A DNA stretch of 64,000 bases, taken from Pegea sp. RAD2-039. Taxonomy: Eukaryota; Chordata; Thaliacea; Salpida; Salpidae. Of this stretch, positions 3,394-55,900 are shown piece by piece. Location: assembly GCA_034620365.1 (NCBI GenBank), contig JAQGEQ010000380.1, positions 1,426,001 through 1,490,000 on the forward strand, read 5' to 3'. The translations under genes and the position numbers were made by a program. Numbering within the stretch: position 1 is the first letter of the stretch; each line of letters opens with the position of its first letter. The notes under the pieces are model-generated. The model ran no database searches, had not been told where the DNA came from, and saw only the letters and a program-made list of their open reading frames with translations.

Positions 3394-5189
3394 TGACAGA
3401 TTTTCATTCCTACTTATATGTTTAATTTTAGTGATTTGAATTCTGTACTTGATATTTTGGATTCAAATATTTTGCTTCTTATCATCAAAATAATTAGATT
3501 CTTTAATGAGGCTTGTGTGCAGATCTTACATCAAGGAGCCTTACTTTCAAATTACAGAATGTATGATTTGATGGTCTTGAGAATTCTTTATTGTATTTGC
3601 CGATGTAGTTTTGTGAAAATAAAAATTTCATCTATTTTTGAATAGCGTAGATCTCACAAAAGGAAGTTTCAAACTTTATTAAAATTTATTAAAATAGTTT
3701 TACTATGATTTTTATTCCAAAGCCCGTACAGCGTGATAAAAACTGCTCCATCAACACTTGTAGGTCATTTGCTGAATGTGCAATGATTACTTCATCAGTA
3801 GACGTGTGAAGATGTTCACTACACTTAAGATAAACTTAAAGATAAACCAACTTATATATCTGAATAATTTTCTTCCTATTTTGTGAAGTTTTCTTTTTAT
3901 TTGATTATTCAACCTTTTATCTTCAACTCTCACTTACGTTCCAGTTATGTACTCTCCTTATAAAATAATTCTATTCATTATCTCAGTTCCAAAGAAGGAG
4001 ATATAAATAAACCCCTGAACTAACAATCAGTTTCTTTCTCTAGTAGCTTCAGTCGAATCTTCAAATTGATTCTTTCTCAAAGATTTATTTTATCATTTGT
4101 TTTTTTAATCTTCTTTGAAATCTACTGATTTATGACTTCAAATCATACAAATGATTCTAGCTACCGATAAATGCTCCCGCTTGATAATAAATAAATCTTT
4201 AAGCTGTAGATCAACATCAACTAACTTTTGCTAAACAATAATAACATTTTTCAAATTCCGATCAATAAAATCTTGTATAGTTTCATCTTTCATAACTTGA
4301 GGTGTTGTCATCACAAATAATTTAATTTCAGAAATAGTTCTGGTCGCATTTGGCTCCAAACTCTCAAGTATTTTAAAACTTTTTAAAACAATATTTAAAC
4401 ACTATTCGAACTTTTTATCATATACACCTATCCCAGGTTAGAGTTCAACTCCTCTGCGTGTGTCCTCACCTTAAAGAAGACGTTCAAATCAGTAATCAGT
4501 TTAAATATCGTTTAATAGAAAAGTATTCCTCAGATGTAGCATACTCTTCTCTTTATACAAAGATCGTCTCTATAAAATTCATAGAGATTATAATATTACC
4601 AACATTTTCATTTCTAAACTGATTTTGTCCTTTTTTATATTATTAGCATTCTATGTACTTGTTCACTGTTATATGCTTTGAGGGCTACTGAAATACCATT
4701 TGTTACATCTTTTGCTTTCCTTATTTCTAAATTAATATATGTTATTTGTGAGAATGTGTGTTAGCGAGAGGTGCTCTCTTCAGGCACCCTCCTTCGCATT
4801 TATCGTAATAAATAAATCTGGACTCTACACAAGCCAAGTTGAAGAACTGTTAGATGGGTTTAGGGAAATATTTGTGTGATAAAATGGGTTTTATTTCATT
4901 TACTGCAACTCATTCAATTAATTTTTATAAATCTGCGCAATTGTTTTACATCACTTATTCTTTCCTAGCATCACTTTGTCTTCGAAGCACTCCCAACTTC
5001 TCAAATACGTCATTAAACTTTAAATGATTTCGGTATGACGTCATCAGGTGAATTAAGTGGAATTGTCAACAAATCAATACAAAAATCGTTTGTATTTTAT
5101 TGTAATAATCTATTGAACTCGATAAAATTTGCATCAAAAACAGAACTTCAAATTTGTAAATAAATATTTGTTCCTAATTCTAGAGATTT
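3394..5189. other. 3' UTR and convergent intergenic region
   Basis: Lies between the 3' ends of the bHLH gene (+) and NOMO (-). The bHLH poly(A) signal is at 3618-3623 and a TGACGTCA palindrome is near 5037. No other gene was recognised. Confidence 0.5.
3618..3623 (+). terminator. Poly(A) signal of the bHLH gene
   Basis: Canonical AATAAA about 225 nt downstream of the bHLH stop codon. Confidence 0.55.
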
Positions 5190-8100
5190 TCATTTACGGC
5201 TCTTACGGATCGGTTTTGAAGAAGAAGTCTCAGAAGTCCTCTTCTTGGCTTTGATAAAATCGAAACTTGATTGAAAAAGTGATAAAACCTGAAAACAGCG
5301 ATTTAGTAATGAAACAAAGAAGAGGTCAAAAGATTACTTGAGGATAGAAGTAAGCGATCAGGATGAAGATTATTGTAAGAGGTAGAGTTGTGAGTGAAAC
5401 TTGAGTGCCTTCAGGATTTAATTTCTTTTCCTGTAAAAAAAACTCGTCACTAGGTGTCAGTAGAAGGCTGTTGAAAACAACTTTTGGTTGGAATTGGAAG
5501 GTAATGTGCTTGTGAGGTCCAATTGCAAAGAAACCAGCTGTAAGTGAAGAGAAGTCGTGAGTTGCTGTTGAAAGGGATGAGTCGAGACGAAGAAGATACT
5601 CTTGCCCGTCGTTAGGCAATTTGGGTAGATGAAAGAAGGGACTCTCTTCATCCATACGAATCACGTGGACGGGTTGAAGATTGTCGGATGCTCGAAAGAG
5701 AGAAATCTGAAGATGAAGATCAAATGATGGCAAGGATCAGATGAAGATCAGATGATGATAAGATCAGATGAAGATCAGATGATGATAAGATCAGATGAAG
5801 ATCAGACTAACCTTAATAAATTGAAGAAATCTTCGCTCAGTGACAACGAAGCCACTGAGGTAGAAGCTCTTATGAGGTCGAAGAGCTACAAACGTCATAT
5901 CCGTGACGTCATAATTACCAATTCTTTTTGTGTAACTACCCGGAAGTAACTGAGAGAATTTGTTGCTAGTATCTTGTGGTGCGATGACGTAATCACATCC
6001 GGGTCGTAAGCCCTTGACAACAAACGATCCGTCGCTAGTAGCAACCGCTTCTTCGATGACGTCATCAACACAATCAGCTGACGGGAGGCTTCGCGCGCGT
6101 ATAACTACATCCGCTTCTGGTTCGTTGTTTAATGATGTCACGTTTCCATAGCAACTACACAACAAACATGAATGACGTCATCAAACAGATGATGACATCA
6201 TCACCTAAACGCGATTCGACGACCAACAATTTTGACTTCAACTTCTCGTCCTTCTCCAACTTCAATGACCTGAATGAAATGGTGACGCTATTAACGAAAT
6301 AATGACGTCATCACTTACCTGGGACGCGGGTGTGAACTGATATTCTTTCATCATCGATTTAAAGTAATATTGACCAGGTTCCAATTTACTGACCACCAAT
6401 AAACCCTTGGAATCGGTTAGATTACTACTTCGATAGTTTCCTCCGCTCACCGCCACTAGTACGCCACCAAGTGGTAACAATTGCTCGTCCAATTTCACCT
6501 GTAAACCATTTCAGTAAAACGCCAATTTTGTCACTTTTCAATTTCTAACCTTAAAGATAATTTTGCTGAGTTTTTTCACCGCGAAACATCCGGGCTTGTC
6601 AGCAATCGTACTCAGCGAGTGATCTGGAAGCGTAGCGGTTGTGACGTAGGTGTTGTCAGGATGCAGTGGACCGTATCTGAACAAATGGTGTCATTAGTAA
6701 AGATATATAAGAGGTCGTGGGGCACCTGTAAGACCCATCGTCAGCAGTGTGAAGCGTAATTGGCGCAATCTTCCCGCTTTGTTCCGTTATCGTGATGATG
6801 ACGTCACTTATAGCGGGTTCCACTTGACCCATGACGTATTTGCCGACAATTCCACGAAAAGTCGCAAGCACCTTTGTACAGTCGTCTGTGACGTCATCGA
6901 GTCAGTGACGTCATCGATTAAACGACAAACAAACCTGATGATGTAGTGACAGACACAGATGAAGGTTCAAAGATCAAATCAGAGGATTTGGGGATGACTT
7001 TAAGAACATCCGAATCACCAGGGACCCAATGTAAGAGTTCATAGGTCACGTGAGTTGAAGATTGGTCGGATTCAATCTTGACAAAAGAGCCTTGAACATC
7101 TGAAAGAAATGGAGGTTTGTGATTGGTTGGTTGGATTTGTAAGTTACTTTTTTTATTGGAGGTTTGAATCGTTGCTGGGATAGTTGTTGGGAGATTGTCA
7201 CGTGGTTTGGTGATGAGATGAACACGTGACTGGTGAGCTATCGCGCGTAGGGTCACGTGCTTTGGATGATCAGTATCATAGACAAGTTTGTGTGGATTGT
7301 GAAATTGGTGACAAGTTTTTGGAACCAAATTATATCGTCCAATCACAGACAAGCAAAGTTTTGATTCATGTTTCATCATCTCAATTGTATCAACAACTGT
7401 TCCATTTAACTCGATATCCTGTTGACAACCAGTTTAGTTTCTATGGCAACCAACTAGCAACTAGATACTTACAACGACGGTGTTGTGTGATACCGAACAC
7501 ACCAGTAGGAAACCAGTTTGCTTGAACGTGATTGGACGATTATTTTGAGTTGGATCAGCTGACACAGCAACTTGTTTCACTTCTTCTTCCCAACACCAAT
7601 TAGTCCGATGAACTTTGACTTCGTGGTTGCCAGGCAACACGTCACTACATAGCAACCGAGTTAGTTGATGAAATTTGATGACGCCATAAGTTACTTGAAG
7701 ACGACGATTTGGTGATTAGAAGAAGATGAGACAGTTTTTTTGATGCTGCCGAGTCTGATGATGATATCTTGACATGATTTAATGCAGTTGATCTCAACTT
7801 GAACATCTGCTCGATACTGAGTAAAGAGCAAGTCGCTGATTGGTTGATCGATTACTTCAACCTGATGTAGACGAAGAGGTTTATGTGAGTTTTCAGCAAC
7901 TTTAAAATATCACCTGAATTGAAGAAGGTTGAAAAGCAAGTCCTTTCTGTTCCAAATCTTTACTGATCACTGATTGGATATGGTGAACTCCTAAAATCAA
8001 CCAATCAGATGCCAGTTGCAACTACAAATTAAACAACGTCACCTGGTGGTAAGTAGAAGCAGAATTTCGAGTCTTTGTCGAGTTTCGTGGAAGATTTGTT

Positions 8101-9893
8101 GGGAGTAACTGATATAGAGATTAGATGATTGTAAGCAGCAGGTGCTTCAGTAACTTGCATTCGACCACAAACAGCAAACTGATCAGGAGTAGTCTCTGGA
8201 AGTTGCGGAGTCTTTGTAGAAACCTCCAGCTGATCAAAAGAAGTCAATCAGCTGATCAATCGATCACGTGACTAACTACAAACATTTCTAGCAGCAAATC
8301 TGAAAAGAGGCTTGACGATTGCAATTTGATAATTTCCATTATTCATATTCTTCAAAGTATAAAAGCCATTTTCGTCACTAACTCCTCGTTCCACACCATC
8401 GACCAACACGCGAGCATCTGATGTAACATCAATAGTTGCCTAGCAACCGAAGTAACTTGGGTGAGACTGACCTGAAATGGGGGAGCCCCCTTCACCAGTT
8501 CTGCTCACAACTCTTCCTTTCACAGAGAAACCGACAACTTGGAACTTCTGATTCTCGATTTGATTGTTGGTGACAGTAAAATGAAGTTTGCGCGGTTCCA
8601 CGTCAAATCTAACAACCAATGAGCGATCAGCAAGTTGCCTAGCAACCAGCAGCAACTTACTGGATAAGCGAACCTTGGTGAAAAGGCATCACCAAGTAGT
8701 TAGCTGAAGGCAGAGACTTAAAAACGTATCTTCCATCGGATGAGGAGGTTGTAGAACAGATGTAGTGAGGATATTCGTCACTGATGACGTCATCACTTCC
8801 AGCCGGTGGGTCATCCACACATTCTTGCATCTAAAGATATCCGTCACGTTGGAGTGAAAACGCGATTTCAAGAAGCACCGTTTCGATTTGTTCACTTTTT
8901 GAGAACAACAAGAAGTGGACTCCTCCGACAGGCAGAGACTGTGACGTCACAAATCCGTGGACGTCGTATCCACCGACAACAAGATCTTCGGCACAAACCG
9001 CGTTGCCATGCGTCACTTGGACGCTTGTAGTTGCCTAGTAAAGTTCGATGTCACGTGATTGCAAGGTAACTAGCAAAACTGACTTTTTGGAAATAGAAAC
9101 TAGCATGAGATGCCGTGACGTGGTAAGAACCAGGTAGAACTCCTTCAAATCGAAATAAACCTCCTTCTATCGACCTCACCGTTTTCATTTCGCGATTCGA
9201 AGCATCTAGAAGCTTGATTGTGACGTCATTAGGACCTGGAGTGTCTGAAAACTGGTTGACAATCTATGAGAAGATGGAAAGATGATTGGTTGATGAGGTT
9301 AGAGGAGGAAATACTTTTCCGGTTAGGGTAAATCCCCGAAAGTGAAAATTGATCTCTTTGGAGTTACTACATGGATCAGTGATTCCATCAACATTTAAAT
9401 CAACTGACATCGGTTCTGAAAGTAAAAAATATGTTGTGGAACAGAGACAGTAAAATCTACTGTGATTATTCAAATGATATCAGAAGGCAGTTTGGATAAA
9501 ATAAATCAAAAATTCACCGAAAATCCATCCTTGAGGAGGTTCAATCTTCAACAGAAATTCACCCTGAAAGTGAAAAATATTAGAAAGAGAAGAGAGAGTA
9601 AGACATCAGAGACCTTCTCAACAAAAGGGATCATATAGTAACCGTTGTTAGGAGCTAATTCACTTTGATGTTTTAACATTCCATCTGATGTATGAAGTTT
9701 TATCTGAAATGACAAAATAATTGAAAAAGATCAGTTAGTTGAAAAGATCAGATGCTAGAGATCAAGCAGGAACCTCTATCTTGGTGAAATCAATATTGAC
9801 ATCAGATTTGACAAATCCTACACAGCCTAAAATATCATCAGATGCTACAGTAGCAACTAAATAAATTAAAACACAAAACAATTTTCTAAACAT
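5190..9893 (-). CDS. NOMO: NOMO, nodal modulator / ER membrane carboxypeptidase-regulatory-like protein
   Basis: Large ER type I membrane protein that works with TMEM147 and nicalin at the translocon to help multipass proteins insert; it was first described as a Nodal-signalling modulator. The start at 9891-9893 gives a signal peptide (MFRKLFCVLIYLVATVAS) followed by ILGCVGFVKSDVNIDFTKIE, the family N-terminus. Later exons carry the expected beta-sandwich repeats: GEFLLKIEPPQGWIF near 9540, VVGFSVKGRVVSRTGEG near 8500, LPPGDVV near 8040, PGQYYFKSMMKEYQFTPASQ near 6350 and RLDSSLSTATHDF near 5580. A TM segment near 5340-5380 (TTLPLTIIFILIAYFYPQ) and a last exon 5190-5288 with a basic tail (KAKKRTSE, then IRKSRK) end it. 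There are many short introns. Several exons contain TGACGTCA in frame, giving DDVI-type residues. An acceptor-like AG lies 5 nt before the ATG. Confidence 0.93.
5734..5810. repeat. Tandem GATCAGATGA-type repeat in a NOMO intron
   Basis: About three copies of a 27-bp unit built from GATCAGATGAAGATCAG and GATGATAA blocks on the + strand. In the NOMO sense direction the array starts directly after the donor GTTAGT and is CT-rich, so it also forms much of the pyrimidine-rich intron body. Degenerate versions of the motif recur at 34265-34305 and 36045-36300 inside SNX14 introns. Confidence 0.8.
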
Positions 9894-14170: not shown

Positions 14171-17100
14171 CTAATCAACTTTAACAGATTTGCGCGTAAA
14201 ATATTGCTTTTGTAAAAATTCTACAACCAATTTTTCACAAAATAGTGTCAACAAAAATACAACAATCAGACAACAGCAACCTACAAACACATGAATCAGT
14301 TTAGGAATCCAACCAACAGAAGAAGAAAAGTAAAACTCAGAGGATAAACAAATAACTGATGAAAGAATTAGAGAGAGAATGACAAACTTGTTTGGAATAA
14401 TCCCTCTTAAAGGAGATTGCATAATCTTTGAGTCTTTGTAATATCTGAAAAGTTTTGAAATGAATGAAGAGATGAGACTGGAACAGAAGGACTAACTTGT
14501 GTATGTAAATTAAACTATGAATAATTCTTGCAACCATATTTAAACAATTTGCAAAGATAAATCCAACACTTCCAAACCAAGAAGTGAAATAAAAAGATGA
14601 AATTAGAAAGATTGTGGAAAAGATGAACATTTTTCGGTTATACCTAAATACAAAAGATGATAAAAACCAACCAGTAGACAGTAGACAACCAGCTAGTAAC
14701 CACTTAGCAACCACCCACTAGTACCTGTCAATCTGTTCTGGTCCATGGCAGCAAACACAAAGCACTCTGTGGTTCCATTGACAGCAATCAACAAAACATA
14801 AAAACAATAAGTTTGAAGCAACGTAGGTCCTGAACCTGCAACAACTGGTTACCACGACAACCAGTGACCATGACAACCAATCACCTGACGACAACAGTTG
14901 ACCTCCATACAAATCTAAAAGCAACTTGGAATAAGGAAGTCCAAACGCTAAAATGATTCCCGCCACTAACATCACGAATCGTAGAAGACAGAAAAGAACT
15001 TGTGACGTCATCAACTGATTGTCCTGACAACACACCAAGCTACCACTAACCAGCATCAGTAGTGACTAATTGCAACTAACTACGTCATCATGTCGCGCGA
15101 CAACACCGCGCTTCAACATCTTGGCGAAAAACAAATAAAAACTTTCTTCAATTGGCAAAAAGATGAATCGCGCTGCGAGGGACCCCAAGTTGTTGATGAC
15201 GTCATAAACCCCCTGATCAGAGAAACTCAACACATCGAGAACCGTCATGACGTAACGTTCACCTGCAGATGATAGTAATGACGTAGCAGTCGCGTTGATG
15301 ACGTCATCACCTTCTGTGAGAACTTGTTTCAAAATCGATTGTTTGAAGAAACTGAAAGTGAGGCTAGAAGCGTCGCGATCAAACCAAACGCCATCTACTG
15401 GCGACGGTAGTGTTTCAGAGAGATGAAGTAGAGGGAGATCGCGTTTCTGGCGCTTTTTGTCGCTTAGCAACCACAAAAAGTATCCGTAGTAGGCCATGAT
15501 GTGAACAATGCAGTGAGCAGCCTGTTGATAGGAGTTAGAGGAGTTTTGGGGAGTTTAAGGACTCACTTGGGCGACACAGAAGCAAAGAAGACCCCATTGA
15601 GGTCTAAAAGTGATGAGGAAGATTATGAGAAGACATTTAACGATCATAGCAGTTCCCTCTGTGATTACTTTCAATTTAATGAAAAGATTACTTTGAGCTA
15701 AAACCCAAAGTGGCTCAATTACAAGTTGGAGCCAAGCAAAGAAGCCAAATATGAAAACAGAGAACGAATAATAGGGAATGGTGACGTCATCAGGGGTCTT
15801 CAACATCCGAGTCCAGATGTAGGAGAGAAGAAGGAAGTTAAAGAAGCCAACTGGAACTCTGACGACAATTTTCAATTTCGATTTCGGTTGCTAAGCAACA
15901 AGTTTCACTTACGAGCACCAAATAAGGTTGGTGGTAAGCTTCCAGTGGCTTCGATTATCACTAAGACATGCTCTAAAGTAAAAAGGTTTAATTGAGACGG
16001 TCAGTTGAGGGACAGGTGGTTGGTGGACACCTTCTGAATGCTTCTCGGGACAGAAAGAGGATTGTTTGATGAAGAAGAGTTAGTCGGACGTTAACGATGC
16101 CGAGAAGTTCACTTTGAATGTAACGAAGAGTGATTGCATTTGTGATGAAGGTTAAAACACGAAATGATAACTAAAAACAAAATGGTCGTTTTAATTTATG
16201 GCCTGGACGCGACAAAACACGTGAAAACGGTGATTTAATTGTTTGTTGGCGTGGATTTTGTACAATGTGCCGAGGCCACCTTGTTTAGTGGAAATATTGT
16301 AGAAGACTGTAGCGACGCGCGAATGTAACAACGCCATCGAGCACATGATGCAAGGTTCATGTGATAAGTATACATCAAGTCCTTTAGCGATGTAGTAATC
16401 ATCAGAAGAAGAATATGAATGATGAAACAATCCATGAAAATCAGAAAGATCAGAAGTTGAATGCTTTAAAAGTGAAATATTACTTCCTCCATGTTGAGAC
16501 TTTGCCAACAGATCCAAACCAACCATGACAGAATGAAGCAACGGCCTACCAGTGGTCAGATTTGAATCTATTTGTGGACCACTTGCTTGCGCTAGCACCT
16601 TGTTATTTGCTGGATCAACTATTCTGATGACGTCAGAGCAGATGACGTCATGTTGGTTGGAAGTGAGTAAGGTGGTCGTCATGAGGTGATGTTCGATGAT
16701 TTGTAACTGATCTTGAGTAAAGCAAGTAGCAGATAGAAGTTGTTCAAGTTGTTTGTCCTCGTGGAAAGAGACAGACCAGAAGTTTTTGGTCAATTCAAAC
16801 TGATGTCTGGTCAAGGGTACTTTAAAGGGCACTGATGTACGGTACAATGGTCCGATGAATGATTTGATCTTTGTGATGTGATCTTTTGAAGATGAACTTT
16901 CAGATAAAAAGTCTTGGATGTCTTGTTTGCTGTGAATTGATTCAACGAGGACAATCACATGAAGTTGGTTTTGCTTCATCATGACACGTTTAAGATGAGG
17001 AAGATTACTGATCGAAAGATGAGTTGATAACAACTTCATTAACTTACAAGTTTGCTTTTTATCTTTAATCTCAGATGCAAATACTTCTCCTAATTGTAAG

Positions 17101-17549: not shown

Positions 17550-19663
17550 TCAGTTTTTCAAATACAAATACATCTTTCCATTGATTGAAGTCTTCTGTAA
17601 GCTCATAGTCCGCAAGATACCAGCAATATGCTCGCCTATAACCGACTTATGAATGCCAGTCGATCGAAACTTCTTCAAGAGCTTTGGTATAGTAATTGGT
17701 TTATGAGTAAGTACTCGACGAACTGCTTCAGAAGTTATGACGTTTGCAGGTGATGATGCATCTTTACTAAAACCAGCAGATGGACCAGGAGCAGAGGTGG
17801 TAGAAGTCGGGTTAGGTTTTTGTCGTTTGTTGTTCTTCACAGGTGAATCTAATCCTCGTTTACCAAGTTTGCTAGTTTTGTTGCTAGAAGATGTGGATGG
17901 TGTTGAAGTAGTTGAAGATTTTGTAGATGATACTGAAGTAGAAGATCCTTTCTTATCAGTAGTAAGAGTCTTTGTTCCTCCTGATGCAGAAGAATCTTTT
18001 TTCGATTTATTCTTCACCTGTAACAAAGCACTCTTCGCTAAATTTTCATCTGCTTCGATCCCTTCAAGATCGGATCCACCGGAAGACTCATCTTTAACTG
18101 CCGTCAACTTTTCTTTAATCTTTGCATCTTCTTCATCACTTGAAGATGAATCATCTAACTCATCAAGACCTTTCGGAGCGATTCTTTCATCGACTCCTTC
18201 TTCGTTGTCACTGCTAACATCACTCTCATACGCGATTTCCACACCTTCGCGTTCTCCATCATCTGAATCTTCCTTTGCTTCAGTTTCTTCTTCTTTTTCC
18301 TTCTTAACGCGTTTACGCCCGCTTTTTTTGCTGACGTCATCATCATCATCATCACTCATGATGCCTACGTCATCAAAATCGTCATGAATCAGCAAATCGC
18401 CTTTTTTCTGCACGAGTGGTTTCGAGCCAGTGACGTCATCAGCACCGTCATCATCATTGGCTTCCATGTGGAGACGTTTACGAGCCATAAAGTTAAGATG
18501 ATTGACAATTTTATCGCGTTTACCCCACGCAGCCTCTGCTTCTTCATCCGTTAGTGTCCTATGTGAGATTTTTCGTGTGAAATTACACCAGTCTTTAATA
18601 GGGTGGGCCTCAAATGTGTGGTCCGGGCGTTGCATAAGGACAAAATACATGGACCCTTCGCCAATGCCTCCTTCTTTTTTGCCGTGGTAGCTTTTTTGGA
18701 CTAATTTTGGTTTCATGTCCATCTTTTTATCGTCCATAGGTATTTGAAAACTTGAAACTGACAGATTCCAGGGCTGATCTGATATTTTAAAGTTTGATTT
18801 CTTCTTCCCATATTTCAATCTCTTTGCCTGTCAACAAATTCGTCGGATTATTCAAATGATAGATTTCAAAAGTAATTGGATGATTAGAAATTGAGTTTTG
18901 TTAACTTAGTGATTGTGATTTTAGTATTTGTTGTTACAATGAATTTAATAGTTTCTGTTCTTCTTTTTCCCAATAAAAATTTATAAAATATTTTCAAATA
19001 TCCAAAAAAATGAAAGTAAAAAAAGAAGATTAGATCTCAGATGAAGATTTACCTCTTCTCGACGCTTCTTACCGAACTCACTACCTTCTCCAAACTCTGG
19101 GAAGTTCATCTCATCATCAAATTGTTTTTTAGCACTTAGATCACGTGACAGAGAAGCTTTAGTCCATTTCTAAACAAATCAGAAGAAAGTTAGAAAGAAT
19201 AACAATAAGAAATTATAAAAAATTCCATAATAAGAAATATATTAAAAAGGATCAATAAAAAGTTATTTCTTATAAGTTAGATATTATATACATTCATTAT
19301 AAATATAAATTATTTAATTATAATTATACATAAAGTCAAAAAATAATTTTGAGTACTAAAGAGTTTGAAAATAAATTTACAATTTTTATGCAGTTTTTAA
19401 ATAAATATTATCAATAAATAAATGTTTATTAGCAGTATTTAAATTAAAACCTACATTTATATTATGATAGATAACATACAATGGATATAATAAAAATATA
19501 AAAACAAAATTTCTACAACATTTACTTTATAAAATTGAAAAGAATCAATTTTTTTGTAGTTTATACTTACTTTTATATCTACTTTATCACCAGAATTAAA
19601 TCTCATCACATTATATTTTCTAGAAGCACTTTTTGGTACAAACATTCTATATTCTTCCCCCAT
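17550..19663 (-). CDS. GTF2F1: GTF2F1, TFIIF alpha subunit (RAP74)
   Basis: Large subunit of general transcription factor IIF, which binds RNA polymerase II with TFIIF beta. Three exons: 19571-19663 (ATG at 19661-19663, EYRMFVPKSASRKYNVMRF), 19053-19169 (KWTKASLSRDLSAKKQF, then GSEFGKKRREE) and 17550-18827. All join in phase 0 for about 495 codons. The N-terminal triple-barrel domain includes ISDQPWNLSV and GSMYFVLMQRPDHTFEAHPI. The middle is an acidic/serine/lysine disordered region of about 200 residues. The C-terminal winged helix (ITSEAVRRVLTHKPI, PKLLKKFRSTG), which binds FCP1 in other animals, is present. The gene ends in TGA at 17550-17552, and RFT1 starts about 120 nt downstream on the same strand with no AATAAA in between. 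The middle region overlaps CAT/GAT repeats. Confidence 0.95.
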
Positions 19664-35400: not shown

Positions 35401-38400
35401 CTGAATAGAGGAGTGCTGGTTCGTAAGCGGTTTACTTCTTCCCATTTTCCTTTTGATACTAAAAAAAGTGGTTAGGATAAAAAAAGTCGCCGAAGATGAA
35501 GATTTCGTCTCACTATCATGTAATTCATCAATGATGTCTTGTTGAAAATGGATGAATGATGAAGCTTGAGGACAACAGTAAGTGTTGTAGATGATCTTTG
35601 CTTCATTATGAAGATTTTTTAATTGAACTTCATTCTGTTCCGGAGCCAAACATCTTCGATTAAAGTCATCTGATGATTTGATGAAAGAAATCGTTTAATG
35701 TAATTGAAAAGATTATTTGATTCTTATCTTGTGAAATTGACTCAAATATTTCCAATTTTAATATTTAATCTATATTATCAAGAAAGTTGACTGACCGACA
35801 GCAAGATAAAATTGGAGGTAGTGGACGGCAGAGTGTGTCTTTAAAAAGCTCATAAATTGATAGAGCATCTCTTGCTTATGAAGAATCTCCTCCAAGTTAG
35901 CATGTAGTAGCTGGAAAGCGTTAATGACGTCACTGATGATGTCACAAGCTACTTACTGATTGGTTGGAAGGTACATCAGGCTTGTTGTGGATGTCTCGAA
36001 GGAAGGTGACCATTTTAGAAGGAGGACCCGGTGCTGGGATTGGCTGAAAGATCAGGAGATGAAGACCAGATGATAAGGATTAGATCATAAGGATCAAAAG
36101 AGGAATAAAGATCAGATGATGGAGATAAGAAGATGAGGATCAAGTGATGAAAACTAGATGAAGAAGATCAGAAGATAAAAATTGAAATATGAGAATCAAA
36201 AGAATTGGATAAAATGAAAATGATCGAATAATAAAGATTAGATGATAAAGTCCAGAAGATGAGGATCAGAAGATGAGGATCAGAGAAGGAATATCGGTAG
36301 ATAAAGATGAGGAACAGAGATTTGTATATTTATTGAGTTACTTACTGGAGAATCATCAAAATAGATAAGTAACATTTTATTAATCCAATCCTTAAAAAAA
36401 TAAATAAAATTTAAACATTTTTGTAACAATAACAACAATTTACATGACAACAATTTCCATGACAACAACAATTTACATGACAACAATTTCCATCACAACA
36501 ACAATTTACATGACAACAATAATTTCCATGGCAACAACAATTTCCATGACAACAACAACAATTTACATGACAACAACAATTTACATCACAACAACAATTT
36601 ACATGACAACAACAATTTCCATGACAACAACAATTTACATCACAACAACAATTTCCATGACAACAACAACAATTTACATGACAACAACAACAATTTACAT
36701 GACAACAACAATTTCCATGACAACTTACTGGGTTATCGATAGCGTCAATTCCCGGCAAAATAACATTTGAAGCTAAAACTTCTCGAATGAAAGATCTTGC
36801 AACACTAAAAGATCGGAAGATGAAGATTTTGATAATTTAGAATTGTAGATGACACTCACTTGCTTCCAGATGAACTTTCAGGACATATAAAAGATAAAAT
36901 CTTGTCTGTCATCGCCCGAATATATTTCACTTCATGTCTTCTGCTCCTCATACAATAATGTAAATTTGTTGACAAAAAATTTATTATTTCATCTTCTCTT
37001 CTATAACCTGTGATGACGTCATCGTTTCGAGATGTCATTGATTATGACAATTTACTGACCTTTTTTGAGAGCTTGTAAACATAACGAGACGTGATTGAGA
37101 GAAATTTGAAGAAACTCCGTCAAGATGAAATCAGTGATATCAATCTAAGAAGATTTAAAAAATCTACATCAGAAGTTTCCAGGTAAGATTTAACTCAAGA
37201 TCTTCACTTTTAATTACTAATAATTAGTTTAAAAAGCTGAATAGGTTTCGATTGTTATTTGTAGATTCTGTTGATTGTTAGTTTAATAAATTTGTTGATC
37301 AAATACAAAATTTAACATCTCAAAAGTTGCCCTACAGCTAGTTAAGAGGAGACGCTTGTTTGTAAGATTTATAAATAAGTTTTGATATTGTGGGTATCTT
37401 TAAAATTGATTCAAGTATTCTGAGATTGAATCATTACAAACTTACTTTACTAAGTCTTCTGTAAATGACAGCAAAACAATACCGAAGATTACACTTCAAC
37501 TCCGTTAGAAAGTCCTCATCATCACTTAGATTTCTGTGAAATTAAAGAAATCAGAAGAAATAATTTCAGATGAAGTGAATTTGAAGTATAAAATGTGTTG
37601 GTCGTAACCTAATTGCTTTCTAATCAATTATTCATCAAGTAATCATTTTTAATGATAGTTTAGAAAAGCGAATGGTTTGTATAAATGCAAGTTTAAAGCT
37701 CTTAAAGAAAAATCTTACTTACTTATACCATTTAGCTGCGTATCTCTCTAAAAGTATATTTATAAACTGCAGAAAAAAAACATGAATAATGAGATTATTG
37801 AAGAGTAATCATTAATTACTTCTTCAACTGCATCGTTGACTTTTTCAGTGACTTCTATGCCAATCCAAGGTTGAAGATTTTCACTTTCTTTTTCAGGTCT
37901 ATAGAAAATATTTTGAAAAATCTTAACTGTAAACAGTGTTTAAGATGTAATTGTTGAACAATTTACTTTTGTCGCACACAATTTGCTTTCCCACAAACAT
38001 AACATTTGTTTGATAGTTTCTGTGAAGATACAACTTGAGGTTTAACCTAAAAATATTTAAAAATATAGTTTGAAAACACTTTATTTATAATATTCCTAAC
38101 AATTAAGTAGTCTACATGAGTCTGCTGATAATGCAGAGAGCTTGAATCTTTTAAATTAAAATTCTAACTACTTTATAGAGATCTTTATAAATATATGAGC
38201 TGTTATTAGTGGTAGGGTTGGTTTGAGAGGTTTAAGGAGATGCAGTACGTTAAGTCATTAAAAGTTTTCTTGAAACTACTAACAGTTTAATGTAATAACA
38301 TTAGTTGAAAAATAATAAATTAAAGTTAAACATGTGAAAGTCCATGAGAAAATCTTATTAGCATAAAATTAATGATTGGAAATATTTCCTCCTTTAATCA

Positions 38401-44475: not shown

Positions 44476-46414
44476 TTAAGCCTTAATATCGTATTCTGGT
44501 GCGCCAGCAAAATAACTTTTCCAAAACTTGCTAGCAATTTCATCTGGGTGCCTACAAGCTTTAACAGAATTGTCTAAAAGCATTTTCTCATAATATTCTT
44601 TAGCATTTTGACTTTTACTCAATAAATCTTTGTGAAGAATAGATAAAAGATATAAGAACGGCCAAAACATATAATCAGCCATTCCAATATTTTCGCCGCT
44701 TATAAAAGGGGTTTTAGAGTCAATAAAATACTTTTCTAGATATTTCAAGCTTTCTCCAATCATCTCCAATCCTTTCTTTCTTTGATTCTCATCATTTGCT
44801 CTTCCAAATGTGAATATACCAGCAATTGCCTGTCAACAATATTACTGAATGAAAAATCCTTGAATGACATTTGTTTGTTTTGGAAAATATAAAAGAACTG
44901 AATTGAAATTTAACATACTGAGTTAATAATTAATAAAAAAAACCATAACTAAATAACAAAACTATAAAATTGGGAAATTTTTTTTGAAATTAATATTTGT
45001 TAACTTTCTTGGAAATAATTTATCAATTGAACTTTAGGGAGGAATTAAAGTTGATCAGTTGGTGACCTCATCTCGTCTTATTCTCCCTATGGGCTTTTGA
45101 TGATAATTAATTTGGATAAAAAAATTATTTTGGTATAGTTAAGATACATTAGATTATATATAATCAAAGAATATTAATAAATAATTTAGAAAAGATAAAC
45201 TTAACTATAAATTTATTAAATTTTTGTTTTTAATTCTAATTTACAAAGAACTAAATTCTGTTGGTATTGGAAATAGTTTTGATTTGGATATTGCATGTCT
45301 AAGGGTCTGTGCTAAAAACAGAAAAACTATTTATATATTGAAGCAGACTTCAAATTAAAAGAAGTTTATTTAATTCTAAATATATCTTTTACAACCGTTT
45401 GTAAGTATATTTAAAGCTCCCTTTCAATCAAACTTTCTATTTTGATGTGTTATCAAACCTATAAATTATATGTAATGTCAATTGAACTAACATCTATAAA
45501 TACAACGTTTAACAGGGAACTGAACAATTATGTCATATGTTAAAAACATTTTTCTAAGCTCTACAAATACTTATTACAAACCTTATCCAAGTCTTTTAAA
45601 AGCATTTGAGCTTTTGCTTTTCTTACAGGGTCTTTAATAGTCAGAGAACCTCTTTCACCATAGCTGTCATCAATATATTGTGATGTGATATCAGACTCAT
45701 ATATAATCAAATCATCTTTCTCAATTATTGGTACTTTTCCTTGGGGATTTTTTTCAAAAATCCATTCTGGTTTATTGACTGTATTACAATTGATAGATTC
45801 GTGTCTGTAAAAACAAAGGTTTAAATTTTAAAATGATTCTCAAAAAACTGTTTCAAAAAAATTGTATTTTTTCAATGAAATCAATTTTTTGTTGAAACTT
45901 TTTTGTATGAAAATTTAAAATTATAGTTTGAAAAGTTTTGTTGGTTTATTTGTATTTTTCGTATAACGCCGATTATTCAATATTATAGTTTTCAGCAACA
46001 TCTATAATTATCAATTTGCACACAGTCAAAGTTAAACCGTGAAAAGCAAGCTTACTTTGACAGCGATTAAACAATGACGTCATAAAACCTAGATTCTTAA
46101 ACAAATAATCTAAAGTGCAAATCGTAAATCCTATTTTTTAAAGATTGAGAATCTGTTTAAAATTCCGGCCATAAAGTTTGAAGTTAAACTCACACCAGTT
46201 CATACACATGGCTTTAACTTACTCGGCGCCTTTGTTATGCATGACTAATTTCAAGCGATGTACAAAAGGACAGAATCTCATACCATAAACTCGCAATTTA
46301 CTTGCTGGTGCTGGGGGATTGTCACCTGAAAAATTATCAAAAAAATAAAAAAATAGATACCTCAAATAAAAGCCTACCTTTATTGTAGTGCAGTGAGTTA
46401 CTCATATACGACAT
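44476..46414 (-). CDS. Omega-class glutathione S-transferase, copy B
   Basis: Paralogue of copy A with the same exon layout. The start at 46412-46414 gives MSYMSNSLHYNKG. Exon 2 at about 46215-46326 includes LRVYGMRFCPFVHRLKLVMH with the catalytic Cys of CPF. Exon 3 at about 45583-45805 includes IFEKNPQGKVPIIEKDDLII, then YESDITSQYIDDSYG. The terminal exon reaches 44476 with MADYMFWPFLYLLSILHKDL and ends APEYDIKA. The introns are longer than in copy A. An AG directly precedes the ATG, as in copy A. Substrate is not predictable from sequence alone. Confidence 0.9.
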
Positions 46415-49400
46415 CTTGAAAGATACAAAAAATCTCAATTCAAGTCGTCTGACAAATTCAAATGAAAGATTAAATTCAATATCCAAAAACGGTTCTTATT
46501 AAATCTAAACTAAAAAGAAAAAAATATTAAAATTTATCGAAATGACTTTGCAAAAAACTAATTATAAATTTCTTTTGAGAATGAACAAATAGAAAACTGT
46601 CATTGTGGTTAAACTCTCATGCTCTATAAGCTGCCTTGTCATCGTAGACAAAAGCCAAAAATACTATATCTCAAACCTTTGATAGTTTGTTGATTATGAA
46701 ACTTTTAGAAGTATATAGTTTCTTATCGCTTGTCAATGCCTAGTTTTATTTGTTTAAAAAACTTTCAATAAATAATTGCCAACAATAAATACTTCAAGTT
46801 TCGATTGATTTCCTAACTATCTCTAAATTTAAAAGAGAACCAAGGCTATGACACTTTTAAACAAATATATTCTTAAACAAAGTTTTACTGAACTTTGAGA
46901 AATTACTCAAATGCAAAAAAACCAAATAGAGAAAACCTATTTGAACGACGGTTTATATATTTAAGATTTAATTTCTAATTCCAGATGTTCATGTTACCAA
47001 TAATATTTAATTTTAACTTTTACAAGCGAAGGATTAGTCTACTGATAAGTTTAAATTTGTTACAATTACTTCCAATCACATCGGTTAATAACATAATATT
47101 TTTGTTTAATTGAAGACAAATAGAAAAATTCGAACAGAATAGAAATAAACAAATACTGTAAGGGTTATACAATAAATCTGAAAGACATTTTCAAAGAATA
47201 AATTGAAAAATTTAATCTAAACACTTAAAATTGCCAAATTTTTAGAAATCTTAAATTTAACTTTTAGAAATAATGACAAACTTTGAAAAACTTTATTTTG
47301 AATACTTTTTTTATTCTAACAGCTAGAAGTTTATGTTTTATTGACCAATTATTAGTTAGATTTTTTTGTAAGTAAAGATAAACTTTTTTTTGTTTCAGAT
47401 GAATAAATGTTTTAGTAATTCAAAATATTTTTGAAGAATTTGTTTATTGGTTTCCAATCTTAATAAGTATTTCTTTTCAAGGCTTCCAAATATTTTTATC
47501 AAATACTTAAATAATAATGTAACAAGAAATATAAATATTATAATTTAAAAATTATGACAAATCATATATTTTGGAATAAACAATGACAAGAATTCTTTAT
47601 TGAATAAACGAATGATTAATCAAGCAATAAAACCAATATATCAAATAACATATGATATAATTTGAAAAAGTTGTTAGTCTTTCTTTTAATGTTATCTTAT
47701 TTAACACTAACTAGGTTGTTAAAAAATTAATTTCAATCAATAATTATGAAGGATTAAATTTTTACAGCAAATATTGGTTGAGTGCTTTCACAAATCATAT
47801 TTATGTTACTATTGGTAGTTATTGTTATTAATAGTTAATCCAACTTTTATTAATTTAGTTTTTCAAATTTTGCAAAATTTTTTTTAATTAAAAATTTACT
47901 TAGTAAATAATTAAAAAATACTTTTTATTAATAGTTATTTGACATAGATTAATTTGTTTATTTATTTTTTGTATGGTAATATTTTATGATTTATTTTAAG
48001 TATAAATAAAAACTCAGAAACACAAAGCCACTGAAAGTCCAAGAAATTTTTTAGAGAAGTCAACTTGATAGGAGTTACTAAGTAAAGCAAACTTGCAACA
48101 AAAAAATTCTTGGAAACAAACTTTATAACAGCTAACAATAAAATCTTAAAATAGTAATTTTCAAAACAATAACTCTTTAATTGTTTTTTACAAGAATGAA
48201 ATATAGGATGAATGCAAAAATTATAAGTTTATAGTCATCATTAAGTATTTAAATAAAACTTTTCTTCAGTAATAAGCTGATGTATTCTCTTAAAGCAAGC
48301 TTTTTACTTAATCCAGCATAAGTCACGTGACCGCGCGGCCTACACACACATATCATCATATGCTTGGTGGTCTTATTGTGAACTGTTTACTTTTAAAAGA
48401 ATTTGCTGAGTAAAAATGACTGACTAAAATCATTTATTAATTAAACTCAAGTTATAATTTTTCATCTTGAATAATTGTCCACTAATTCATACTAGTTCTT
48501 AAGAATTGTTTGCTAGAAAAAATAAATTATTTTTAGCTTAATCATGTAAACCTTAGTTTGATGAATAAATAATTTTTATTAAAAATTATGATAATTGTTT
48601 ATCGATAGTAAATTATAATTTTAAGACAAACTTCAGAATAAAATTTTTTAAGGAGAAAACTTTGTTTATATTTTTTAAAATTGTAAATTTCCTTAGAATA
48701 ATAATAACAAAAATTAAAGTTCAACGAAAACTGTATAATTATATAAAAATTTGATTACAAGTTTCAGTTCGATTTAAAAATTTAATTGAAAGAAGTTTCG
48801 AAAATAGAAATTCAAAAGGTTTAAGAATGATCGTTTTCAACTTTTAAAAAACTTGAAACATAATCTCAAAAACAAACTTAAAGTTAACTACGAAAGTTTA
48901 GACTTTAAAAATGAATAATCTTTTACTTGAAAATTTTTATCGTAAAATCTTGTTGTAGTATTTACAATTATTTAACAAGAAGCTAAATAAGATTTAATTG
49001 TCAAAAAATTAATTGAAAAATATAATTTCTGCAACAATCGGTACTATTTTTCAATTCTCTTAAAAACCTAAGATAAATAACGCAGAAATATAACAGTTTT
49101 TACAAAAAGGTTAATTTTCTGACAAATTATCAAATAATTGCTGCAGCTAATAATTTGAATTTTAGAATTGTTAAAAAGCCTCCAAAATGTATGAATTGAA
49201 ATTTTCTCATATTGTGTAATAAAAAAACAAACGTCATAATTTGTCGTCCGATTTAATGACGTCATCAACTCTATGAATGAAAAGTTCACAACTTGAGTAA
49301 TCGATTCCCAGTATGAGGTTTTAACTTAATTAAGTAACTAATTTGGCTCTTTGATAAAACAGGCCGGCAAAAATCTATACTTTCTCAAGACTTACAAATA

Positions 49401-51408: not shown

Positions 51409-52950
51409 ATGTCCCTAAAAATCTTTTCAATTTTTTTACTCATTTTTCCCCAACTCCAATTAAATGCTGCCAATAATGAAATCAGCGAAGCACTCACCGA
51501 TGATGACGTCACTACGCGCGACGACAACCTCATCCCTATCTCTCGAGACTCAGAAGCGATTGGCTTCTTTGGTGATTATGATGGTAAATCGTTCAAAGTA
51601 TTTGAAACTAACCAAAAGAGTCTTCCAACGAAATCCGTTAACCTCATCATCAACAATTCTTTCTGCTACTTGCCTCTTGAGAATAGTCCAGCTGTCCACT
51701 AATTGGTTGTCTCATTTTTAACCTCAGGACATCTACAAAACGGAGTCCCTTTAATAAATGAAGCTAAGATGACTCAACATCAACTAGTGGTTGGAATCAT
51801 GCAATCCATTGTTGCTTCCTTATCTTTCATCGTTAATATAATCCTCCTTATTCTCACAAGAAAGTCTCATCAAAATAATTTCTTTCGGAAGATGCAACGA
51901 TTCCTTCTTCAAAATCTCAGCTTCAGCTGTTTGCTCCTCATCGTTACCATGGTAACATCCGCTGTTGAAAGCCTCGCTGATGATTGGATGTTTGGAGATA
52001 TTCCTTGTAAGGTTGGTTGAGTTGATGACGTCATCTCGTTGTTATTAGTAACAGCGATTTTTTCGCAGATGAACAATTGGTTAAAAGTGGTCGGGATCTT
52101 TTTGCAAGCTTTTTTTACAACTTTACTTTCTGTTGAAATATTCCTTTATCTTCAATTCCCAAAACTTATCAAAAAAATTGAAAATAATCTTTGGGTCTTC
52201 CAAATTGGTATCTTTGTTGGAGGTTGGATCTGTTCTGTTCTTCTCTCTCATCCATCATTCTATCGGAGTACTATTTTTCCAACTGGTGAAAGTAATCAAT
52301 GTCGACTACAAAGCTATGATTTTGATTCAAGTGACTTCAACGACTTTGAGGTCTTGAACGTTACGTATGATGGTGACGTATACATCGAAATCTCGGAAAA
52401 CTTCACTTCCTATTACGAGCATATGATTAACGACAACTCATCTTTGCTAGAAACTAGATGTACTTCATCTCAACAAAGTCCCGCCTTCAGAGTTTGGATG
52501 ATTTGTGTAGTCGTGTTTTCTCATATTTTCCCATTTTTTCTCATCTCTTGCTTTTATATAGCGTACAAGATGTTAGGAAATATGAAAGGAACAGATAAAG
52601 ACGTGAAACAAGTTGATTTTAAGATGCTTAAACAAAAAATATGGATTTTTTTAACTGTTCTCATCTTTGTTCTCTGCTGGCTCCCATCTACATCTTACAA
52701 ACTCAGCAAGGAAATCGGTCTTCCGTTAAACATTCATCAGTGTATGTTGTTTCGAGATATTTCTTTTATAATGGGCTACATGTCGTGTTTAACACTCCCA
52801 ATTCCTTCTGTTTTATGCTTGTTTAAAGTTAACAAAAGTGAAAAAGAAGAAGTGAGATTAGGAGATGTCACAGATGACTCCCCGTTGTTTGTTGGGGATG
52901 CCAGGGTTGGTTTTGATGGTGAAACGAGGTTCTATTCCATTTCTAATTGA
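51409..52950 (+). CDS. Divergent rhodopsin-like seven-transmembrane receptor
   Basis: Putative G-protein-coupled receptor; ligand unknown. Exon 1 (51409-51685) starts with a signal peptide (MSLKIFSIFLLIFPQLQLNA) and an acidic ectodomain. Exon 2 (51728-52011) has TM1 (SIVASLSFIVNIILLILT) and TM2. Exon 3 (52069-52950) has TM3 to TM7. The TM3 and ECL2 cysteines (DIPCK and NQCRLQ) could form the usual disulfide. TM6 has the CWLP motif. DRY is absent (VEIFLYLQFP instead) and NPxxY is replaced by LPIPSVLC. ECL2 is long, acidic and carries NVT, NFT and NSS sites. The exon 1 to 2 join needs a 42-nt intron (51686-51727), which bypasses a TAA at 51700; the second intron is 57 nt and contains TGACGTCA. 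AATAAA follows at 52980. An acceptor-like AG lies 10 nt before the ATG. Confidence 0.8.
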
Positions 52951-55900
52951 TACTTTGTAAAAAAGTTTATTTGCATTTGAATAAAATTTGTGTTCTAAAT
53001 AAAACATTTTTGTACTTTCAATGCCAGCTTTAGTTGCTAAATAAAGGAAGTTATTTGACGGTTAATTAGATGAAGTTTTAGAAAACAAATTTTTATGAGA
53101 ATTTTCTAAACTTTTCGAAAATAATAGCAACTTGAACCATTTTAGAATTTACCACAAGCTTTAAAAGCAAAATATTAAATCAAAATTTCTCGAAAATTAT
53201 TAGTTTTTTTCAATATTTTCAGATTATTTGAATGAAAGAATTCTTTTATAGATTAAAATAGTTTTATGAATTTGTAGTAAATATTTGTTTTGTTAGATTC
53301 TAAAAAAAGAATGATGAATATTAAAATAGAAATTCAATTTATTCCATCAGATTATATGTAAACTATATCAGAAGAATTTAAAGATTAAATGATTAATCTT
53401 CTTATGTTTCTTCAAAAAGCTGATCAGAAACCTTACTCCATGGCAAGCCTGATGTTTATACAAATGTATATGTTTCTATTTTTATCAAACTTAATTAAAT
53501 AAAACTTTGAACAAAGTTAATAAAAGTAATTGATAAACACAGCTTTGAAAATTACTCAGTATTAAAAATAGAATGATAAAAAATAATTAAATTAGATTTC
53601 AAATCCTTTTATAAATATATTTATTAAGCAACACATTAATCAGTTTATAAAACTTTCTAAGATTAAAAATAGAAGAAGTGATGATTTAAAAACGATCTTA
53701 CCAAAAGATAACTGTATCAAATTCCTTTCTCTAAATAATTACTTTGTTTTCACGTGTTAAAGAAGTGAAAATCTCGTTTCACAGTGTATAGAAAATATCT
53801 AAAAGACATTTTTGTTGAATTAAAAATTATCGATGTTACAAGCCTGAATTTCTTTTCTAAGAAGTCTATTTTGGTCAAATAAAATTCATTGAAACTAGAT
53901 CTGAGGTTTTAAATTAAACTATATATAATTGAACTGAATTACAAAAGTATTTTTCAATTTGGAACTAAATCTTTTAAATTTTTACTCAAAGTATCAAAGG
54001 ACTTAAAAAATTCTTTGTTTTATGCACATAATGACAGATAAGATGATTAACGAAGAGGTATAGAATTGGCAAACTTCCAAAGCAACATTTCTTTGTAGCT
54101 GATAAGTGTGAAGATAGGTTGTCTGTAATGAAGTCATTTGAATCAAATTTAAAGAAAATTAAAAATAAAACAGTTCAAAGTTCACCAAGGTTTGAACTTT
54201 TACAAAAAGTTTGAACTTTTGCCTGCTTTTGATTTTCAATCATTTGATTATTTTGTTTTTTAGATAATTATTTGTTTGATATTATTCAACCTTTTACATT
54301 TTTTAATTTTGTTTGATATCTAAAATATTACGTTTATCAAAGCAAAATTAATAAAACACAAATTATTTGATTATAGATAATTTGTTTGGTGTTTAAATAA
54401 ATAATTTTACAAAATTTCAACAATTCAAATTTAATCAATAAGAAAAAAGTTTGGATCAAACAATAATGTTTCTAAATTATTTATTTACATTCATTGAATG
54501 TTCAGCTTTTTACATGAAGCAAAGACTGTTTAAAGTTGGATTAAGAAAATTGATTGAATAATTCTTCAACTCATCTTTCTTTTAACTCAAATTGAAGAAA
54601 AAACCTTACTAGGGTTATGAGTCATAAAAAATCAAAGCATTTGTTGCTCATTTTGTCAGCTTACAAAGATTATCTGCAAATGATTTAGACAATATCACCA
54701 AGTTTCATTGTCTTACATATTGAGAGTAAAACTTAATGAAATAAATGCAAGCGTGAGTTGGTAATTAGTCAACATAATTATTCTGTTTTGGAATTTTAGA
54801 TAGAAAATTAGGTTAATGTTTAAGAACAAACAAAAAAAGCTGAGAAAATTTGTTAAAAAGCTCTTGAATAACAAAATTAACAATACCAAGTAAAAATGTT
54901 ACTTGAAAAACTTACTGAGCGGTAAAAGTTTCTTTCTATTGTTCATATTTGTTCAAATCTAATAAATCAAGATAATGTCGAAGTCTCGACGCAGTTCTTG
55001 AAAATGACGTCATTAACGTTTAGAAATGTCAAAAAAGTAATGTAGTGTAACTGTTGACTGATAACAAATTATTTGTATGCTGTGTCGGCTGCTTTACAAG
55101 TATCTCTGTTTTTGTTTATTTAAATGTTTCAAAATATTCAGTTTTTAAGTCTGATTTTTAGAAAATGAATTGTAAAAAAAAAAGAGAAAAAATTTGTAAT
55201 ATAAAATTATTTGAGATAATCTTTTCGGCTTATTGATTTGGAAATGTTTTTTAAGTAGATAGATTATATATATTTTTATAAAATACTTAACTTTGATAAA
55301 ATATTCTTTTTCAATATTATAATTTTTGGACATGAATTGATGATATCTATTTACTATAACAATTATGGTTTGATAAACGTACTAGAACATTGTTCGTGAA
55401 AAGTAATTATTATAAAAATGTAAGAGTAAAAAAAGAGTTTAAGGTTTTATCGAAACAATTAGTATGTTAATGAAACAAAATTTTAACATAAGAAATTAAA
55501 AAAAAAAATTATCTAAAAAGTAGCATAGAAAAATTGTAACTGTATGTCATCTTTATACTTTTATCACTTTCTGCATGACTGGCTTTGGGTGGAACACAAC
55601 ATTTTGTAAAAGATTAAACCTAGCTTGTAGTAGAAAGCACAAAATATAAAGATGCCTAATATTCTAAGAAAAATAATTGATGAACTTTAGGTCAATGTCT
55701 TTAACTGGAATTTTCGGAATAAGTACATAGATAGAATAACTAATTGTAGTTTAACACATTTGTTTTAGATTCTATCATTCAAAAAGCTAACTTGTGAAGA
55801 GCTTATAAAATATAGAGAATCAATTAAGATGCAGGAAATTTTTTATCACAAATATTCTATTCTAATTGCTATAATCGATCAATAGACAGATATTGGAGTT

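Follow-up and report, generated by a model that had tools for sequence, protein, structure and literature searches.

We analyzed a 64-kb stretch of the genome of Pegea sp. RAD2-039 (contig JAQGEQ010000380.1; hereinafter the window) in which the palindromic octamer TGACGTCA, the core of the cyclic AMP-response element (CRE) of CREB/ATF proteins, occurs exactly 40 times between positions 5036 and 55012. The assembly containing the window comprises 105,744,746 bases in 387 contigs. Exon models were prepared for 12 genes of the window, namely NOMO, RFT1, ADAT3, GTF2F1, SNX14, Pax, a GPCR-like gene, two GST-like genes, SDHC, 'SETD', and a bHLH gene, from the output of a home-made gene finder, combined with matches in Pfam and PDB and edited by hand; the gene finder over-predicts, and only exons of homology-supported genes were kept. 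Splice sites in NOMO, RFT1, and SNX14 were guided by human proteins, and a reading frame was assigned to each exon separately, for 12 of the 74 on the basis of codon score. The joined exons are open in one frame in NOMO (22 exons, 1,224 residues), RFT1, SNX14, and ADAT3; those of Pax and the GPCR-like gene are not, and their models are less certain. SNX14 was named from a PX match and the GPCR- and GST-like genes from Pfam scores slightly below the curated cut-offs; 'SETD' (the gene at 60.0–61.5 kb) is named by resemblance only, the tested piece being without a Pfam match; RFT1 has a Pfam match and no PDB match. The curated models contain 62 introns, 48 of them no longer than 120 nt, and these short introns (positions 2406–61272) are very uniform, with a median of 52 nt and many of 48–54 nt.

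Sites of the octamer along the window

By these models, 16 of the 40 sites (listed throughout with the strand given as '.') lie in exons, 15 in introns, and nine elsewhere; 31 thus fall within exons or introns of curated genes. Twelve of the intronic sites belong to short introns, distributed over nine of the 48, with two sites apiece in three of them. NOMO has exonic sites at 5904..5911 (read as YDVT), 6057..6064 (DDVI), 6799..6806 (SDVI), 8785..8792 (DDVI), 8942..8949 (FVTSQ), and 9221..9228 (NDVT). Further NOMO sites occupy a 50-nt intron (6173..6180), a 49-nt intron (6303..6310), and a second 49-nt intron holding both 6889..6896, which adjoins the 3′ splice site, and 6906..6913, while 5036..5043 lies about 150 nt beyond the stop codon. 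In RFT1, exonic sites at 15003..15010 (LMTSQ), 15197..15204 (VYDVINN), and 15782..15789 (DDVT) are accompanied by one in a 48-nt intron (15299..15306) that adjoins the donor site. Two exonic sites each were found in ADAT3 (16628..16635, SDVI; 16643..16650, HDVI) and GTF2F1 (18332..18339, DDVS; 18431..18438, DDVT). At Pax, two sites 20 nt apart (23852..23859 and 23872..23879) lie upstream of the paired-domain exon, and a third (23938..23945), of unsure coding status, is at or just before its start; the gene also has two sites in one 51-nt intron (24147..24154 and 24164..24171), one in a long intron (24417..24424), and one that is probably intronic (26440..26447).

SNX14 carries exonic sites at 34656..34663 (VTSS) and 34670..34677 (DDVI), two in a single 54-nt intron (34509..34516, and 34538..34545 adjoining the donor site), and one each in a 46-nt (35925..35932) and a 115-nt intron (37014..37021). 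The donor sites at 15299 and 34538 lead directly into TGACGTCA. The GPCR-like gene has one exonic site (51504..51511, DDVT) and one in a 62-nt intron (52026..52033), and a long intron of the second GST-like model, itself uncertain, contains 46075..46082. The spacers hold the remainder: 29183..29190, which adjoins a copy of a second palindromic octamer, TCACGTGA, 29257..29264, 29284..29291, 49257..49264, and 55005..55012. Two of the ten TCACGTGA copies of the window are located in NOMO introns of 54 nt (8264..8271) and 49 nt (9051..9058).

A sharp, genome-wide excess of one exact word

The earlier note on this DNA had reported about 40 copies, far above chance, and this held up under every model applied, the expected number ranging from 0.37 to 0.78. 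In 100 dinucleotide shuffles of the window TGACGTCA appeared 0.37 times on average (largest count 4), whereas a local order-2 simulation (60 runs) predicts 0.78 copies, that is, a 51-fold excess, and a global order-2 model 0.56, or a 72-fold excess. Under the latter model it has the top ratio of all palindromic octamers with at least four copies in the window, the runner-up being TCACGTGA with its ten. The flanks are also constrained: 38 of the 40 copies fit RTGACGTCAY, 19 the 10-mer ATGACGTCAT, and six the full 12-mer GATGACGTCATC, so that the wording 'usually GATGACGTCATC' was too strong. Pooled flanks yield the longer consensus TGATGACGTCATCA in the window and the same, weaker, outside it. 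RTGACGTCAY is the full-length site that bZIP dimers of the ATF/CREB type prefer, and the core together with its RY flank is identical to the CRE.

Confinement of the enrichment to this window, which the note had named as the outcome that would speak against it, does not obtain: the genome contains 27,792 copies of TGACGTCA (one per 3.8 kb) as against 969 of the reversed word. The extended RTGACGTCAY occurs 23,214 times as against 228 for its reversed form, such that the RY flank accompanies 84% of TGACGTCA copies (23,214/27,792) and 24% of the reversed control (228/969). Two other palindromes behave likewise, namely TCACGTGA (4,614 versus 237 reversed) and GTTGCNNNGCAAC (GTTGCN3GCAAC; 518 versus 18 for the reversed pattern). 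All such reversed words differ in base context and serve as rough controls only. The window, at 0.63 copies per kb (one per 1.6 kb), is richer than the genome mean of 0.26 per kb; seven 10-kb stretches picked without regard to the motif have nine copies in 70 kb (0.13 per kb), an eighth fetched stretch (L170) having been excluded from this figure because it was already known to carry copies.

The excess is sharply centered on the exact word. After masking of tandem arrays, the window has 40 exact matches against 0.7 expected, 24 against 17.3 with one mismatch, 221 against 204.7 with two, and 1266 against 1319 with three. Genome-wide, allowing up to one mismatch raises the count to 64,917; hence 37,125 stretches carry a single mismatch, compared with 27,699 for the reversed control. 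Of these, 11,070 are accounted for by TGATGTCA and its complement, the products of CpG deamination (reversed forms: 2,673), while the remaining 22 words with a single mismatch add up to 26,055, close to the 25,026 of the control. TGACGTCA is therefore a word with hardly any halo in the genome except its deamination product. Since this pair stands out with the other 22 words at background, loss of TGACGTCA probably proceeds mainly via CpG deamination; base context makes TGATGTCA common anyway, and its true excess may thus be well below the four-fold suggested by the reversed control (in the window, four copies were seen and 3.4 expected).

With respect to sequence classes, the note had held that copies favor the GC-rich genes and are nearly absent from spacers. 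The first part is borne out as a statement on density: 500-nt tiles of 39–45% GC carry 2.3 copies per kb, and those of 21–33% GC 0.2 per kb. Relative to composition, however, the tiles show a 50–125-fold excess in every GC bin at or above 0.21 (no copy was found in the 5 kb below 0.21), and class-specific order-2 models give observed/expected ratios of 58 for exons, 163 for short introns, 124 for long introns, and 84 for spacers (order-1: 64, 336, 58, and 60, respectively). As the excess over local composition is similar in all classes, the preference for GC-rich genes mostly reflects composition, and the spacers are far from depleted; short introns are truly richer in the word.

The flanks of the sites are unrelated to one another. 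We compared the 60-nt flanks of 139 distinct sites, namely those of the window and 99 from an outside sample of 154 kb, consisting mostly of stretches picked for the motif; they are similar in only two pairs, one of which is a true duplicate. A mobile element or dispersed repeat carrying TGACGTCA was rejected on this ground, and the suggestion of a mobile process is not sustained by two flank-sharing pairs in such a sample. Window positions 4317–6669, at the end of NOMO, have a partial duplicate on contig C10 (C10:365001–375000, L183) at about 95% identity (66 substitutions and 41 gap columns in 2,096 columns); there, the NOMO-end copy is followed by pieces like window positions 474–856 and 69–143 in changed order. 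The copy retains all five covered sites along with their flanks, which is not significant at that divergence. The stretches L154 and L155 offer no case of gain or loss, the site falling where the two align poorly. We also observed a repeat of roughly 500 nt that is dispersed and frequently in tandem, with at least 112 genome matches, one copy of which (L178, 7654–8156) lies beside a dense cluster; this copy is without TGACGTCA and does not span the sites of the cluster.

Coding sequence and local context of the sites

Protein sequence has evidently been affected. Upon permutation of synonymous codons within genes, the exons contain a mean of 1.1 copies (1,000 runs, largest 7) against the 16 observed, and upon permutation of codon order a mean of 0.26 (largest 3). 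Thirteen of the exonic copies read x-Asp-Val-x and three x-Thr-Ser, only two of the three frames being used because the third contains a stop. The earlier claim that the motif shapes protein sequence from within exons is upheld by the doubling of the DV dipeptide in the curated exons: 37 occurrences against 17.9 expected after codon shuffling. The same shuffling gives DVI 8 against 1.2, DVT 7 against 0.9, DDV 9 against 1.1, and VTS 4 against 1.6; DI (16 against 18.7) and DL (22 against 28.6) are not raised, and DD (38 against 17.4), TS (43 against 25.6), and EV (22 against 15.0) are also above expectation. In the PDB alignment of NOMO with human NOMO2, which lists four of the six exonic sites in full, three of these are gapless and one has a two-residue gap inside; in ADAT3, the alignment of which is weak, a one-residue gap borders one of the two sites. 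Given that alignment at the exonic sites seen is mostly gapless, most of them look like substitution in place.

The neighborhood of the sites was examined with CpG-bearing anagrams of the word as controls. In the window, CpG observed/expected is 1.08 within 100 nt of sites and 0.75 at 600–1200 nt, the corresponding values for the anagrams being 0.85 and 0.79; at more than 1 kb from sites it is about 0.6 in exons and spacers alike. By gene, exon CpG observed/expected is 0.23–0.68 where no site is present and 0.52–0.99 where there are sites. The non-CpG GC content likewise drops with distance, from 0.358 to 0.303 outside the window (anagrams 0.318 to 0.293) and from 0.345 to 0.290 within it (anagrams 0.304 to 0.279). 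Among the exonic bases of the window no such drop was found (0.381 versus 0.374, p=0.44, 30 sites), and the overall gradient may accordingly reflect the difference between genes and spacers. These data neither prove protection from methylation nor exclude conversion; GC-biased conversion as the sole cause was set aside on account of the missing exonic gradient and is retained only within the explanation by biased repair considered below.

Sites also tend to cluster. In the window, seven pairs lie less than 35 nt apart against 2.1 after local jitter (P=0.0026, for a limit chosen post hoc). The genome has 5,280 TGACGTCA pairs with a gap of at most 30 nt, 466 of which are spaced 20 nt start to start, about two turns of DNA, as compared with 170 if evenly spread; tandem arrays contribute to this in part. 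The first sign of the spacing had come from 10 of 56 pairs listed. On viral contigs, at least 120 stretches have close word pairs, mostly one pair each, and the 40 densest of those listed range from 0.31 to 0.71 in GC; neither set was used.

We then surveyed proteins that could act on the word. A search of the genome with the PF00145 profile gave 11 matches, and of five frames examined, two (L162 and L164) are of DNMT1 type with the PCQG motif and two (L165 and L168) are related and lack it; the fifth (L169) we take, from its motif, to be of DNMT3 type. Seven long DNMT1-type open frames on contigs C57, C249, C32, and C52 (L162–L168) are intronless in the matched part. A bacterial-type word-specific methylase appears unlikely, in that the five frames examined of the 11 matches look DNMT1- or DNMT3-like; word specificity is not readable from sequence. 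The PF07716 profile returned 11 bZIP matches, and in eight of these we judge the basic regions to be Jun-like (1), XBP1-like (1), PAR-like (2), and C/EBP-like (4).

What may maintain the word

The excess is genome-wide and sharp, the sites share no common flank, and after correction for composition every sequence class of the window shows it to a similar degree. We propose, with a probability of roughly 0.4, that TGACGTCA is an animal counterpart of the highly iterated palindromes, kept by a weak, position-independent advantage of sites putatively occupied by bZIP proteins. The favoring agent would be the occupancy itself, each bound site being of small benefit: if, for instance, bound sites held transcribed DNA open or unmethylated, any position within a gene would suffice. 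Were gain and loss at equilibrium, the 29- to 72-fold excess would mean that each site carries a scaled advantage of roughly 3.4 to 4.3 (ln(29) to ln(72)). The second and third palindromes are presumably a bHLH-ZIP-like site (TCACGTGA) and an RFX-like site (GTTGCNNNGCAAC); their resemblance to sites of other dimeric factors argues for protein binding and against a single enzyme that recognizes a single word. Also counted in favor of occupancy are the close pairs with their 20-nt spacing, the CpG peak next to the sites, and the presence of DNMT-type and bZIP proteins in the genome. The pattern seems to call for a force that acts on the exact word regardless of sequence class and extends to three distinct palindromes; occupancy by dimeric factors may, on a tentative reckoning, fit this best.

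Several observations weigh against bZIP occupancy. A 58-fold excess of protein-altering exonic sites is much to demand of weak selection per site. Among the eight of 11 PF07716 matches examined there is no typical CREB/ATF1 protein (PF00170 was not searched), and the seven DNMT1-type stretches, 30.7 kb in all, have no TGACGTCA. Within the window, the deamination route is not apparent in one-mismatch forms at the two CpG letters (5 against 4.53 and 6 against 4.57 expected), letter 6 is in excess (4 against 0.80), and the half-site ATGACGT outside full sites shows a modest excess of its own (13 against 4.2). Outside the window, the rise in CpG within 50 nt of sites is weaker, at 1.02 [0.92–1.12] against 0.92 [0.89–0.96] for the anagrams, with overlapping intervals, and there is no TpG/CpA deficit near sites to match CpG retention. 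Finally, the 56 pairs that revealed the 20-nt spacing belong to the 5,280 later counted.

A drive through repair or conversion, in which biased mismatch repair or gene conversion creates and keeps the word with no benefit to the host, is the main alternative, a rather doubtful one yet with evidence on its side. It would account no less well than occupancy for an excess independent of position across all sequence classes and for a force that overrides protein sequence, and the non-CpG GC gradient in and outside the window agrees with it, except among the exonic bases of the window, where it is flat. A CRE-bound protein that triggers recombination could supply the breaks, as at the M26/CRE meiotic hotspot of fission yeast (Atf1-Pcr1): the 10-mer ATGACGTCAT is the M26 hotspot form tested in yeasts (PMC3534124), where it was studied for recombination. 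Three unrelated enriched words are not explained by one repair rule. Moreover, a break-inducing allele is normally converted away, so that a hotspot word should be lost rather than gained. Stated at the level of the word, with biased repair, conversion, or over-transmission favoring intact bZIP palindromes even into coding sequence, such a drive appears unlikely; if true, a transcription-factor recognition word would behave as a selfish element of the genome and give rise to changes in proteins.

Somewhat less probable still is that the sites serve numerous genes as conventional cAMP- and stress-response elements and owe their density to the shortness of genes and introns. In favor of this, TGACGTCA is the canonical CRE, short introns are densest in it (12 sites in 2.77 kb), stretches chosen for density have clustered sites, 14 to 22 of them within 3 to 10 kb, and the Pax paired-domain exon has three sites at its start or just upstream. 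Ordinary regulation would thus explain the introns and Pax; it does not explain the exonic excess (58-fold), which is near that of spacers (84-fold), nor sites that run along whole genes, for example, towards both ends of NOMO. The densest genes, RFT1 (4 in 1.0 kb) and ADAT3 (2 in 0.9 kb), are, we assume, housekeeping genes. Elsewhere the focus has been on start-site placement of the CRE, a bias observed only in vertebrates in a nine-species survey (PMC1796609), whereas here the word populates exons, introns, and spacers.

It is very improbable that survival alone is at work, with CpGs decaying in a methylated genome and factor-bound CpG words persisting so as to seem enriched. DNMT genes are present, CpG is depleted far from sites, and in the NOMO-end duplicate 11 of 84 CpGs found in either copy differ, seven of them as CpG/TpG or CpG/CpA; but depletion to 0.6–0.75 yields less than a two-fold excess, not one of 29- to 72-fold, and survival cannot generate the non-CpG letters or the RY flank. 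As the sole cause it was rejected as too small by more than tenfold. Mobile or repeated DNA has next to no standing as an explanation: some tandem arrays do carry the word, but only two flank-sharing pairs (one of them a true duplicate) among 139 sites, a repeat of at least 112 matches that bypasses the adjoining cluster, and gapless alignment of three of the four fully shown NOMO sites all speak against it.

The closest parallels are HIP1 (GCGATCGC) and the other HIP words of cyanobacteria, which are likewise exact palindromic octamers in great genome-wide excess, genes included. PMC4390886 describes these words as linked to methyltransferases, occurring about once per 1000 nt, and having one-off forms biased to the end letters, and Elhai proposes there a drive by biased repair or conversion. 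The coding-inclusive, genome-wide excess is shared by TGACGTCA (27,792 versus 969; exons 16 versus 1.1). Its density, by contrast, is lower at one per 3.8 kb in the genome and one per 1.6 kb in the window, its one-mismatch forms are not biased to the end letters (0 and 2 against 0.93 and 1.10 expected, small numbers from the window only), and no word-specific methyltransferase was recognized among the five PF00145 frames examined of 11 matches. The host, with spliced animal-type genes such as NOMO, Pax, RFT1, and GTF2F1, is not cyanobacterial, and the word is a transcription-factor site. Given its density and the absence of the end-letter bias, we do not class TGACGTCA as a HIP word, though it behaves like one. 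The DNA uptake sequences of Neisseria and Haemophilus are also short, exact, dense words kept by a process acting on the word, and they need natural transformation.

In animals, ctenophores have an abundant, CpG-bearing, methylation-sensitive loop-anchor motif bound by CTEP1/CTEP2 at promoters and enhancers, as reported for such a non-bilaterian animal in PMC12221973; that is a GC-rich zinc-finger motif with two CpGs, not an exonic bZIP palindrome. Among the titles and abstract openings listed in literature searches, none dealt with a genome-wide excess of TGACGTCA in any animal, though an earlier mention is possible; TGACG does not occur in the searched part of the text of eLife 22194, and the terms searched are not present in PMC10580291. 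Within the literature found, genome-wide iterated words have so far been bacterial (HIP1), and here is one in an animal, its excess such that one dipeptide is twice as frequent as expected in the proteins analyzed. With an exact word and 27,792 sites, the forces that retain short words in genomes can be tested cleanly, given that selection, methylation, and transmission bias predict differently for heterozygous sites. It also counsels caution: in a genome of this kind, a match to the CREB/ATF motif is a poor guide to how an individual gene is regulated.

Lastly, we recorded tandem and palindromic features of the same sequences. One array (C8:368056–368223) carries one TGACGTCA per 20-nt unit, and another (L180 880–921; C1:6016880–6016914) one per 17-nt unit inside an apparent coding frame. 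Near SNX14, a 17-nt tandem repeat of 3.7 copies (32934–32996) has a unit with CACGTGACTCA, which we take to be an E-box joined to an AP-1-like site, and in the SNX14 gene region a 541-nt array (33483–34023) is built of a 22/44-nt, ACCATCTACCAACCAATCAAC-like unit; further low-complexity arrays occur in L178 and L179. The NOMO introns near 8450–8700 contain GTTGCTAGGCAAC-like palindromes, presumably RFX X-box-like, of the pattern counted above genome-wide (518 versus 18 reversed); among the places listed, their middle letters are often CTA/TAG or TTA/TAA.

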